Positions 202-10,635 of a stretch of 38,781 nt of DNA are shown piece by piece. Positions within the stretch are counted from its first letter, which is position 1. Each line of letters starts with the position of its first letter. The stretch is from assembly GCA_944324265.1 (NCBI GenBank), contig CALUVS010000022.1, forward strand, positions 1 to 38,781. Direction: 5' to 3'. The position numbers and the translations under genes are program-made. The stretch is from an uncultured Traorella sp. (GTDB lineage Bacteria; Bacillota_I; Bacilli_A; Erysipelotrichales; Erysipelotrichaceae). Under the pieces are notes generated by a model. The model was given only the letters and a program-made list of their open reading frames with translations. It did not search any database and had not been told where the DNA came from.

Positions 202-513
202 TTAATTTTTCATCATCTTATACACATCTACAAATTCTTCAGCAAGAATACCAAAGGCTTCAGCGCTCATCAATTGATCTTCTGCGTGCATAAGCAATAA
301 AGAATATTCGCTTTTTTCTCCTGCCGCTTCCTTTTGGACCAATTCTGCGTGGGCATGATGTCCTTGAATAAAGGTTTCTTGTCCCTGTCGGATCATCTCC
401 TGCGCTTCTTCAAATTTTCCTTCTTTTGCTAAATGAATAGCTTCTATGTACATAGAGCGTGCAGCTCCCACTGCGCTGATGATCTGAAAACTAATCAGTT
501 CGATACCATCCAT
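202..513 (-). CDS. PTS lactose/cellobiose-family IIA component
   Basis: This 103-residue protein is a cytoplasmic phosphocarrier that takes phosphate from HPr and passes it to a IIB domain. It is all-helical with the family motif LLMHAEDQLMSA near residues 74-85, and its His is the expected phosphorylation site. Length is normal for the LacF/ChbA family. AGGAG sits about 7 bases before the ATG. It is the last gene of the eleven-gene operon starting at 10635, one base after the adjacent IIB gene. It is the only IIA in the operon, so it would have to serve both IIB proteins. Family assignment is firm; the sugar is inferred from neighbours. Confidence 0.93.
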   Translation of the reverse strand: MDGIELISFQIISAVGAARSMYIEAIHLAKEGKFEEAQEMIRQGQETFIQGHHAHAELVQKEAAGEKSEYSLLLMHAEDQLMSAEAFGILAEEFVDVYKMMKN

Positions 514-514
514 C

Positions 515-817
515 TTAATCTCCTAATACTTCTTTAACATGTTTGATGACTTTCGCACCATCCATTGTACCGTAAGCAGCCATATCGATAGCTTCTACCA
601 CACAATTTGGACATTCTTTCTGAACTTTACTTAAGTTGAATCTTACCTGTGGTCCCAATAATACAATATCAGCATCTTCTCCTCTTGTTTTAGCTTCTGC
701 TACTGGATAAGCATTGATATCACATTCATATCCTAATTCTTCAGCTGCTTTCTTCATTTTTGTTACAAGCATACTTGTGCTCATACCTGCGGCACATAAT
801 AATACAATTTTTCTCAT
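515..817 (-). CDS. PTS cellobiose-family IIB component (copy 1)
   Basis: About 100 residues. It carries the classic IIB phosphocysteine loop LLCAAGMSTSML near the N-terminus, with the Cys as the residue that receives phosphate from IIA. The start was set at the ATG at 817 because GGAGAG lies about 8 bases before it; the in-frame ATG at 832 lacks a good ribosome binding site. It lies between the GH1 gene and the IIA gene. A second, diverged IIB (2255-2578) sits upstream of GH1, which is unusual because one EIIC normally needs one IIB. Confidence 0.93.
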   Translation of the reverse strand: MRKIVLLCAAGMSTSMLVTKMKKAAEELGYECDINAYPVAEAKTRGEDADIVLLGPQVRFNLSKVQKECPNCVVEAIDMAAYGTMDGAKVIKHVKEVLGD

Positions 818-846
818 ATTTTCTCTCTCCATTCTTTTAGTATTTT

Positions 847-2265
847 CTATAATATTTCGCCATTAGATTGAATGACTTTTTTATACCATCCAAAACTCTT
901 TTTCTTTGTCCTTTTTAAGGTACCATTTCCAGCATCATCTCTATCTACATAAATAAATCCATATCGTTTACTCATTTCTCCTGTAGAAGCACTGACCAAA
1001 TCGATAGGCCCCCATACCGTATATCCCATCAAATCAACTCCGTCTAATTCAACTGCATCTTTCATGGCCTGAATATGTTCTCTCAAATAAGCAATACGGT
1101 AATCATCTTCTACATAGCCATTTTCATCTGGATGATCTTTTGCACCTAATCCATTTTCAACGATAAATAATGGCTTCTGGTAGCGATCATACAATTCATT
1201 CAGAGTAATTCTCAATCCCAATGGATCAATTTGCCAACCCCATTCACTTGATTTCAGATGTGGATTTGGAACTGATTTCATTAAATTATTCATGCTCTCT
1301 ACACTTGGATCTGCAGAAACTGTCTTAGTAGAATAATAACTAAACGAAATGAAATCTACAGTATGATTTCTTAATATTTCCAAATCATCTTCTTTTGCCG
1401 GTAATTCAAAATTGTTTCTTTCAAATTCTTTTAATGCATAGTTTGGATAATATCCTCTTGATTGCACATCCACAAAGAAATAATTTTCCCGATTTTTATT
1501 TTGTGCTTTAAATACATCTTTTGGATTACATGTATATGGATAGAATGTTCCGGCATTTAACATACATCCTACTTTATTTTCCGGATCAATTTCATGAGCA
1601 ATTTTTGTAGCCCATGCGCTTGCAACTAATTCATGATGAGCAGCTGTGTACAAAACTTGATATCTATCTTCATTTGGTTCAAAGCAAATGCCTGCACCCA
1701 TGAATGATCCATGCAGCAATACATTAATTTCATTAAAAGTAAGCCAATATTTTACCAATCCCTTATAGCGATTAAATAATACGGTAACCAGTTTCTTATA
1801 AAACTCAATCATTTTTCGATTACGCCAACCGCCATACTCTTTGATCAAATGAATCGGACAATCAAAATGCGTAATTGTAACTAATGGCTCAATTCCGTAT
1901 TTATGACATTCTCGGAACAGGTCTTCATAAAATTGTAAGCCAGCTTCATTTGGCTCTTCCTCATCTCCCTTAGGAAAAATACGCGTCCATGCAATTGATA
2001 AACGATATACTTTAAATCCCATTTCACCAAATAAAGCAATGTCCTCTTTATAATGATGATACATATCAATTGCTTGTTTTGCCGGATAATAATACCCTTC
2101 TTCAAAATCGAGCATTTTGCGATTTCCTGCAACAATTTCCCATCTTTGTGCACCATGCGGTATTACGTCAACATTGGCTAAGCCTCTTCCCCCTTCATTA
2201 TAAGCTCCTTCACATTGATTAGCGGCAGTTGCACCACCCCATAAAAAGTCTTTTCTAAACGGCAT
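847..2265 (-). CDS. GH1 6-phospho-beta-glucosidase
   Basis: A cytoplasmic family 1 glycosidase of about 472 residues that hydrolyses 6-phospho-beta-glucosides to glucose 6-phosphate plus aglycone or sugar. Visible motifs are TFNEIN (acid/base Glu, near residue 175), IVENGLG (nucleophile Glu, near 368) and the phosphate-binding Ser/Lys/Tyr cluster [11 protein letters not shown] (near 425), which marks the phospho-specific branch. N-terminal [15 protein letters not shown] is typical of the family. The start at 2265 is preferred over the upstream ATG at 2286 because AAGGAG sits just before it; this leaves an 11-base overlap with the upstream IIB gene. Context says it opens the glucosyl part of a PTS-imported glycoside. 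Confidence 0.95.
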
Positions 2266-9304: not shown

Positions 9305-9321
9305 ATGCATTTCCTTTCTTT

Positions 9322-9353
9322 AAAAAAGAAGTTCTTATGAATGAACTTCTTTA
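9322..9353 (-). terminator. Intra-operon intrinsic terminator/attenuator
   Basis: On the minus strand a perfect 10-bp stem (AAAGAAGTTC with GAACTTCTTT) with an 8-base loop runs into a T6 tail. It lies between the EIIC stop and the transketolase N gene. No other promoter is obvious in the 50-base gap, so it probably lets only part of transcription continue, or caps a processed transporter mRNA. Confidence 0.75.
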
Positions 9354-9360
9354 ATATTTA

Positions 9361-10635
9361 TTAATCTTGACTTTCTTTTGTTTTATTTTCCGTTTTTGTA
9401 ACCTGATTATCAAGTACCTTAAAGAATGGAAGATAAATCAAGATGCCAACTGCTACTAATACAATTTGTAAAACAGATGCTCTCCATCCTCCTGCTAAGA
9501 ATGCATTGACTAAAATTGGTGTTCCAAATGGAACCTGAACACCATTTAAGTGAGGTACTAAGCCAATTGCAATTGCAATGTAGGCAATAACAGACTGCAC
9601 AATTGGTGTAATAATAAATGGTATAGCAAGAAGCGGGTTTAAAACACATGGCAAGCCAAACATAACCGGTTCATTGATAGTAAATAAACTAGGAACAGCA
9701 CTTAAACGTCCAATTGCTTTATGTTGCTTTGATTTTGAAATTAACAAAATCAAAATAACTAATGATAAAGTACCACCAGCACCGCCAATTCCAGTAAAAA
9801 TACTGTAGAATGTTTTACCTAAAATATTCAAATCAGCATTTGCTGCTCCAGCTAAAACCATTTCCATATTCACAGTATCCATTGGCAAATATACAGCATT
9901 GATAATTGGCTGTACTACTAATGCACCGTGGATACCAAAGAAGAACAAAACCATTTGTACTAAAATAATGAAAGAATATGCCCAAATACTAGAACCCATT
10001 GACTGCAAAGGTGTAGCTACCAATGTATAGATCATATTTGTTAATGAACCCCATTGTGTGAATGAGAACAAAACAGCAATGATGATAAATAATGCTCCTA
10101 CAAACATACCTGGAATCAAACCTTCAAATGTATTTGCAATAACCGGAGGAACGCTGTCCGGCATTTTGATTTGAATCTTATCATTTTTCATTAGCGCACA
10201 ATATACTCTAGTTGCCACCAAAGTAGCTAACATAGCTGCAAATAAACCTTGTGCTCCCATCCAAGTCATATTTAATGCGCCTTCATTTAATGGTGTAATA
10301 ATTAAGAAAGCAAAGATTGAAATAATACCAGCAGAGATACCGTCCACTTCAAAATTACTTGCTAAACGGTTACCAATCAAGAAGCATGCATAAAGTGACA
10401 TACAACTTGTAGTAACAGTAGATGCAGCCATTAAGTATGTGCGAATACCTGCATCCGTTAAAAATTGTTTCCATGCATCAATCGGAATAACTGCAAGCAG
10501 CAATGCAATTGAACCAATCATCAAAATTGGCAACGTACCCATTAAACCTTTTGAAATAGCGTCTAGATAAATGTTGCTTTGGACTTTAGCAGCAAACCCT
10601 AACAGTTTATCCATCAATTTTCCATCTTTATTCAT
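9361..10635 (-). CDS. PTS lactose/cellobiose-family EIIC permease
   Basis: A 424-residue integral membrane protein with about ten hydrophobic segments, the EIIC fold of the cellobiose (CelB/ChbC/LicC) family. It moves a beta-glycoside across the membrane while a IIB phosphorylates it. Recognisable parts are the N-terminal LPILMIGSIALLLAVIP, the loop FFFGIHGALVVQPIINAV and the substrate-side segment FTINEPVMFGLP. AGGAG precedes the ATG. It is first in the eleven-gene operon, behind a strong promoter at 10704-10732. Its partners IIA and IIB lie at the far end of the operon, and the enzymes between them define the likely substrate. Confidence 0.94.
   Translation of the reverse strand: MNKDGKLMDKLLGFAAKVQSNIYLDAISKGLMGTLPILMIGSIALLLAVIPIDAWKQFLTDAGIRTYLMAASTVTTSCMSLYACFLIGNRLASNFEVDGISAGIISIFAFLIITPLNEGALNMTWMGAQGLFAAMLATLVATRVYCALMKNDKIQIKMPDSVPPVIANTFEGLIPGMFVGALFIIIAVLFSFTQWGSLTNMIYTLVATPLQSMGSSIWAYSFIILVQMVLFFFGIHGALVVQPIINAVYLPMDTVNMEMVLAGAANADLNILGKTFYSIFTGIGGAGGTLSLVILILLISKSKQHKAIGRLSAVPSLFTINEPVMFGLPCVLNPLLAIPFIITPIVQSVIAYIAIAIGLVPHLNGVQVPFGTPILVNAFLAGGWRASVLQIVLVAVGILIYLPFFKVLDNQVTKTENKTKESQD

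Follow-up and report, generated by a model that had tools for sequence, protein, structure and literature searches.

A tight operon in an uncultured Traorella sp. as a candidate phosphotransferase route for apiosyl-glucosides

The stretch of DNA analysed here, referred to as the window, comprises 38,781 nucleotides of contig CALUVS010000022.1 (assembly GCA_944324265.1) from an uncultured Traorella sp. of the Erysipelotrichaceae with a genome of 2.2 Mb. Between positions 202 and 10635 on its minus strand lies an operon that is best explained as serving the import of apiosyl-beta-glucosides by the phosphotransferase system (PTS), in the course of which the glucose moiety would be phosphorylated, apiose removed inside the cell and glucose 6-phosphate released thereafter, a reading to which we assign a rough probability of 0.78. 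It draws on the gene content, the folds and conserved active sites of the encoded proteins, the ancestry that kinase and transketolase share with operons for growth on apiose, and the linkage of a glycoside hydrolase family 140 (GH140) gene to PTS genes.

Each reaction and each substrate of the proposed route is a prediction. The enzyme II (EII) components EIIA, EIIB and EIIC would import an intact apiosyl-glucoside of the apiin type, i.e., an apiosyl-(1->2)-glucosyl-aglycone with a free C6 hydroxyl group of glucose, and place a phosphate on C6 of its glucose. Apiin is apigenin 7-O-[apiosyl-(1->2)-glucoside] (PMC10706860) and, because apiose is attached at O-2 of the glucose, its C6 is free. 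In an optional step, an alpha/beta-hydrolase may strip acyl groups from the substrate in the cytoplasm, where the GH140 enzyme would remove apiose and a GH1 enzyme would cleave what is left, a 6-phospho-glucoside, to glucose 6-phosphate and the aglycone. The apiosidase is placed ahead of GH1 since a substituent at O-2 should block the GH1 subsite. Free D-apiose would then be converted to apulose by an isomerase of the AraA/FucI fold and apulose to apulose 4-phosphate by a GlpK-like kinase, while a split transketolase would use glyceraldehyde 3-phosphate to form xylulose 5-phosphate and dihydroxyacetone phosphate. Control of the operon would probably fall to a LacI-family repressor.

The catabolic core of this route is already known, and its coupling to a PTS is a new variation on a known pathway. 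As reportedly described by Carter et al. 2018, apiose is degraded via apulose and apulose 4-phosphate, which is the substrate of a transketolase. The apulose 4-phosphate pathway corresponds to MetaCyc PWY-8089, named in PMC13001218. No published version of a PTS-linked apiose route was found in the open-access literature, in agreement with an earlier sequence-only reading of this DNA, which knew of no described PTS-coupled version.

Gene content of the operon

Eleven consecutive open reading frames (ORFs), all on the minus strand, run head to tail, separated by no more than about 50 bp and overlapping in several places. This ORF layout and the families assigned by Pfam and NCBIfam profile searches bear out the tight eleven-gene operon of the sequence-only reading. 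Transcription from 10635 towards 202 would begin with EIIC, a permease of the lactose/cellobiose family (9361-10635; TIGR00410, 325 bits, cut-off 236), followed by the AptA-like N-terminal transketolase subunit (8480-9310; PF00456, Transketolase_N, 5e-49, 168 bits) and the AptB-like C-terminal subunit (7543-8535; PF02779, Transket_pyr, 2e-32, 113 bits; PF02780, 3e-24). Next come the GlpK-like FGGY kinase, a predicted apulose kinase (6069-7550; FGGY, 243 bits), an alpha/beta-hydrolase resembling the arylesterase lp_1002, which is a predicted cytoplasmic deacylase (5267-6088; Abhydrolase_3, 3e-14), and the predicted D-apiose isomerase (3850-5265). These are followed by the GH140-family apiosidase (2571-3857; PF13204, Apiosidase, 273 bits, cut-off 26.5), a second, divergent IIB (2255-2596; PF02302, 5e-11), the GH1 6-phospho-beta-glucosidase (847-2286; NF007158, 902 bits, cut-off 639), a IIB of the lactose/cellobiose family (515-832; PF02302, 4e-23) and a IIA of the same family (202-513; PF02255, 3e-31). 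Ten of the eleven genes had been named by the sequence-only reading; the remaining one, left without a name, is the arylesterase-like hydrolase.

The IIA, IIB and IIC components match PF02255, PF02302 and TIGR00410 and thus belong to the lactose/cellobiose family of PTS, with the active-site cysteine present in both IIB proteins. An IIB gene directly following GH140 recurs in five further loci (L035, L036, L037, L149 and L150; relatives are denoted by locus numbers throughout). The GH1 protein exceeds the cut-off of its curated profile and carries the phosphate-binding S...KRY motif. The hydrolase scores 136 bits with NF052620, below the cut-off of 300, and its Ser-Asp-His triad is conserved in the PTS-linked relatives. 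Since an esterase occurs in PTS-linked clusters only, among the loci examined, acylated substrates are suggested, and their handling by this enzyme is the weakest step of the mechanism.

Apiosidase, kinase, transketolase and isomerase

The sequences of solved structure nearest to the PF13204 protein are 4QFU, the apiosidase 8T9W and BT_1012. For BT_1012, D187 and E284 have been proposed as catalytic residues, and W63, W149 and Y287 are aromatic residues of its cleft (PMC4032388). In the window protein, D163 and E247 align with the former, and W30, W117 and Y250 with the latter, all five being invariant in an alignment of eight sequences. An AlphaFold2 model (predicted local distance difference test, pLDDT, 81) matches 8T9W best, with a template modelling (TM) score of 0.81, followed by 5MSY, a structure of BT_1012. 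Both the best structural match and the active-site layout uphold the earlier assignment of this DUF4038 protein as GH140-like, and release of apiose is its predicted activity. Moreover, its sequence lacks a signal peptide, which makes the cytoplasm its expected site of action. Within the class, 6 genomes out of 395, the one under study included, encode a close GH140 protein, and a phylum-wide sample largely overlapped this class sample.

The earlier designation of the sugar kinase as FGGY holds at the level of the family and can be refined to the GlpK type, given 517 bits with PRK00047 (cut-off 498), as opposed to 228 bits with XylB and 32 bits with AraB; among solved structures, glycerol kinases come closest to it. 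In Escherichia coli GlpK, glycerol is contacted by R83, E84, W103, Y135, D245, Q246 and F270. Despite the PRK00047 score above cut-off, the window kinase falls outside the glycerol kinases, with both Q246 and F270 replaced by serine. Of 93 aligned kinases, 87 carry the same Ser/Ser pair, among them the kinases from the apiose operons of E. coli SE15, Rahnella and Sodalis; the six that do not are three true GlpKs plus three kinases from L046 and L116. The kinase tree sets the operon kinases and their proteobacterial apiose counterparts apart from GlpK (support 100/100). A subclade supported by 100/97 unites the erysipelotrichaceal lineages with lactose-type PTS, the clostridia L045, L047, L048 and L059, and Listeria. 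Assignment as GlpK by identity alone was considered and proved misleading; pocket residues and tree decided for the apiose-operon group, as had been anticipated for a kinase of the apiose pathway. A separate, true GlpK is encoded elsewhere in the genome.

Likewise, the N subunit of the transketolase groups with AptA of E. coli, Rahnella and Sodalis (support 100/100, from few comparators), apart from the other split transketolase of the genome and from one of Clostridium paraputrificum. The AptA/AptB type proposed from the sequence is thereby supported.

The AlphaFold model of the isomerase (pLDDT 89) best matches L-arabinose isomerases (TM score about 0.82), then L-fucose isomerases; a sequence search yielded no close solved structure. 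Its residues E296, D322, H338 and H430 show no variation and have the spacing of the metal ligands in AraA. The protein is 24-25% identical, over 95% of its length, to a member of the L-fucose/L-arabinose isomerase family encoded in operons of Rahnella and Sodalis, of which it is a distant homologue. The apiose-type clusters of Rahnella and Sodalis consist of a binding protein, a DUF2291 protein, an ATPase, a permease, a regulator, the transketolase pair, the isomerase and the kinase. In Klebsiella the same isomerase-family protein is found beside the kinase, while two short-chain dehydrogenase/reductase (SDR) genes take its place in the apiose operon of E. coli. A cluster of Rhizobium (L141, 3154-8261) combines the transketolase pair, an FGGY kinase, a DUF2291 importer and a triose-phosphate isomerase with a protein of triose-phosphate isomerase (TIM) barrel type at the place of the isomerase. 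The isomerase step of apiose utilisation thus appears in three different solutions, namely AraA/FucI-type proteins, the SDR pair of E. coli and the TIM-barrel protein of Rhizobium.

The isomerase tree requires three or more switches between a PTS-linked and another setting, its root being left out of account in view of very long outgroup branches. The sample includes 4 further genomes of the genus, none of which contains a close isomerase, and the distribution of the operon is patchy.

Neighbourhoods in relatives and the weight of the alternatives

A scan of named genomes, which covered at least 580 relatives, yielded 80 loci. Along with the isomerase, present in all 80, the N subunit of the transketolase occurs in 75, the C subunit in 72 and the kinase in 74. 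As this core recurs in dozens of genomes, about 70 of the 80 relatives retrieved among them, the gene content of the operon lies far beyond chance. Moreover, 25 of the 80 loci (29 by a looser score) encode an ATP-binding cassette (ABC) importer with a binding protein and a permease. Identities to the apiose operon of the E. coli ST131 type mostly amount to 41-46% for the binding protein, 46-49% for the ATPase and 47-54% for the permease. For the binding proteins of E. coli and of clostridia, PDB 5IBQ is the best solved match; it may be an apiose complex, and the argument does not rely on it. Strains with the E. coli operon grew on D-apiose, whereas K-12 did not (PMC13001218). Since the core occurs together with this type of importer, it very probably represents the Bacillota form of apiose catabolism.

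Among the 59 loci longer than 15 kb, PTS genes and a close GH140 gene occur together in 4 and are both missing from 55 (p = 2e-6, an optimistic value given the relatedness of the loci), and the ABC importer is never found with either. An EIIC of the lactose type accompanies the core and GH140 in L033, L034, L035 (identical to L044, Breznakia), L036, L045 (C. paraputrificum) and L151. In L059 (C. zeae), PTS of both the lactose and the beta-glucoside type are present, L047 (Clostridioides difficile) features a beta-glucoside-type IIBCA with GH1, and L039 combines GH140, the core and two GH1 genes with a glucose-type EII nearby. Further arrangements are IIBCA-esterase-GH140 in L152 and GH1-LacI-EIIC-GH140-IIB in L149 and L150, the latter two without the core. 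GH140 is hence paired with two unrelated PTS families, also in Listeria and C. difficile, and because this pairing is repeated and often includes GH1, it constitutes the best evidence that apiosyl-glucosides enter by the PTS and are cut inside the cell. That PTS genes and GH140 travel together in relatives also sustains the PTS-coupled apioside uptake put forward from the sequence. On balance, we lean towards an undescribed route for PTS-imported, possibly acylated apiosyl-glucosides, with GH140 enzymes adapted to phosphorylated substrates, that came together repeatedly, drawing on two unrelated PTS families, in gut Erysipelotrichaceae, in clostridia, C. difficile among them, and in Listeria monocytogenes.

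In L. monocytogenes NCTC7974 (L124, 4004-13086), genes for a LacI-type regulator, the isomerase, the split transketolase, a 'glycerol kinase', a PTS IIBCA and a DUF4038 protein form one cluster, which is a candidate apioside operon. By the numbering and annotations of EGD-e, it presumably corresponds to lmo1030-lmo1036. The cluster has been referred to as beta-glucoside PTS and beta-glucosidase (PMC8079631) and as hypothetical (PMC2996996); according to the latter source, L. innocua and certain strains of lineage III lack several of its genes. In L153 (5743-10660), genes for a lactose/cellobiose-type EIIC, an alpha-L-rhamnosidase and GH140 adjoin each other, perhaps for PTS uptake of apiosyl- or rhamnosyl-glycosides.

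Several observations weigh against the route outlined above. The isomerase shares little identity with its Rahnella and Sodalis counterpart, and homologues that are 57-59% identical (L046 and L116) lie without an adjacent transketolase pair or Ser/Ser kinase, which is why the isomerase alone is no proof of apiose as the substrate. By raw identity, the kinase resembles GlpK (40%) more than ApsK of E. coli (32%). GH1 is absent from the operon in L033-L036 and Listeria; of these, the close relatives L035 and L036 do possess PTS and GH140 genes, and the EIIC of L033 and L034 lacks IIA and IIB nearby. Finally, we know of no precedent for a GH140 enzyme acting on a 6'-phosphorylated glucoside.

The missing GH1 genes, together with the alpha-L-rhamnosidase neighbour in L153, would also suit a route in which the apiose core is rightly assigned and the PTS imports free apiose or a non-glucosidic apioside, e.g., a fragment of the pectin rhamnogalacturonan II (RG-II). 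For free apiose, the apiosidase would be unneeded and, if the PTS phosphorylated apiose, the kinase would be superfluous. Regarding other apiosides, GH1 6-phospho-beta-glucosidases share one cluster with GH140 in six genomes (the window's own, L039, L045, L047, L149 and L150), and L149 and L150 retain just the GH1-to-IIB arrangement in the absence of apiose catabolism genes. Furthermore, since the Traorella genome holds about 16 GH1 genes, GH1 enzymes encoded outside the operon could serve in relatives whose clusters lack one. Import of free apiose or a non-glucosidic apioside is therefore unlikely.

A xylosyl- or arabinosyl-glucoside such as primeverose or vicianose could likewise enter by the PTS, with isomerase and kinase leading to xylulose or ribulose 5-phosphate, and the L-arabinose isomerase fold as well as the inclusion of xylulokinase and ribulokinase in the FGGY family are in line with it. 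On the contrary, the kinase is GlpK-like rather than XylB- or AraB-like by the scores given above and groups with apiose-operon kinases, xylulose 5-phosphate needs no dedicated split transketolase, PF13204/GH140 is the apiosidase family, and the same core is found with an apiose-type ABC importer. The sequence-only reading had listed glucosides of this kind as the alternative; the evidence gathered lends them no positive support, and we regard them as very improbable. Equally improbable is an unrelated branched-sugar or sulfosugar pathway, to which the best curated match of the isomerase, the sulfoquinovose isomerase SftI (NF048012), and the other cluster type around the L046 and L116 homologues might point, given that its 131 bits fall far under the cut-off of 700, sulfosugar genes are lacking nearby, and transketolase, kinase and GH140 fit apiose.

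The L046 (6942-13088) and L116 (5309-12950) clusters themselves contain, along with the isomerase family, a SIS-domain protein, an alcohol dehydrogenase, a DRL-family oxidoreductase and FGGY kinases, and probably belong to another sugar pathway.

Regulation, flanking genes and comparison with known systems

A consensus scan placed a sigma-70-type promoter, TTGACA-17-TATATT, at 10704-10732 on the minus strand, 69-97 bp before the EIIC start; it agrees with 11 of 12 consensus positions, a consensus match only. Just downstream of it lies the operator-like imperfect palindrome AAGGTTGCAACTTT (10676-10689, minus strand), a putative LacI-family site. Its core GTTGCAAC occurs once in the window at an expectation of 0.61, which is not significant on its own. 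This GC-centred core also stands at the corresponding position ahead of EIIC in L149 and L150 and in no other relatives, which is a weak indication, and a search for CG-centred LacI operators returned nothing shared. At the other end, a probable terminator (12-40, minus strand) was read directly in the sequence as a GGTGGTC/GACCACC stem followed by a T-run, its loop of 9 being outside the limits of the hairpin scan. A LacI-family regulator identified by profile match (12333-13355, minus strand), whose relatives of 49-57% identity lie beside the operon in L033-L036, probably controls its expression. Between this regulator and the operon, two tandem hydrolases of the metallo-beta-lactamase fold (10830-12309) are encoded divergently from the latter and may perhaps be candidates for aglycone or ester hydrolysis. 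A lactonase-family gene is also located near the apiose cluster of Monoglobus (L126).

Elsewhere in the window, an IS110-family transposase (22796-24055; NF033542, 211 bits) is followed by a mannose-family PTS with IIA, IIB, IIC and IID (26297-30256), divergent from a GlmS-like SIS-domain protein and resembling systems for glucoselysine or fructosamine utilisation. At 31246-37162, an unusual partner of a sugar PTS, a gamma-glutamyltransferase gene, accompanies genes for a lactose/cellobiose-type EIIC, a GH4-family protein and a protein resembling galactosamine-6-phosphate isomerase.

Apiosides such as apiin and those of licorice are common dietary plant glycosides, and little is known about their breakdown by gut bacteria. 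The operon offers a complete and testable gene set for their use, which would re-annotate genes termed 'glycerol kinase', 'beta-glucosidase' or 'hypothetical' in many genomes, Listeria included, and it suggests a candidate family of apiose isomerases as well as GH140 enzymes suited to phosphorylated substrates.

Compared with known systems, the kinase and split transketolase group with those of D-apiose degradation via D-apulose 4-phosphate of the Pectobacterium/E. coli type (apiose isomerase, apulose kinase and AptA/AptB), and, as in Rahnella, Sodalis and Klebsiella, a protein of the L-fucose/L-arabinose isomerase family is encoded with them. However, the known pathway relies on a ribose-type ABC importer for free apiose and has no GH140 or GH1 in the operon, whereas the window encodes a PTS, a putative intracellular apiosidase, a phospho-beta-glucosidase and an esterase. 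The Listeria cluster (L124) shows the same core with PTS and GH140, but its IIBCA belongs to the glucose/beta-glucoside family, and GH1 and esterase are absent from it. With the GH140 enzymes BT_1012 (3KZS/5MSY) and 8T9W, the latter from a mangrove metagenome, the window protein has the fold, the catalytic Asp/Glu pair and the aromatic subsite residues in common; it is about 20% identical to them, lacks a signal peptide, is encoded next to PTS genes and probably has small phosphorylated glycosides rather than pectin as its substrates. PTS operons for beta-glucosides, finally, which comprise an EII and a GH1 6-phospho-beta-glucosidase, share uptake and the phospho-glucosidase step with the window but, unlike it, contain neither a second, pentose-removing glycosidase nor a pentose pathway.

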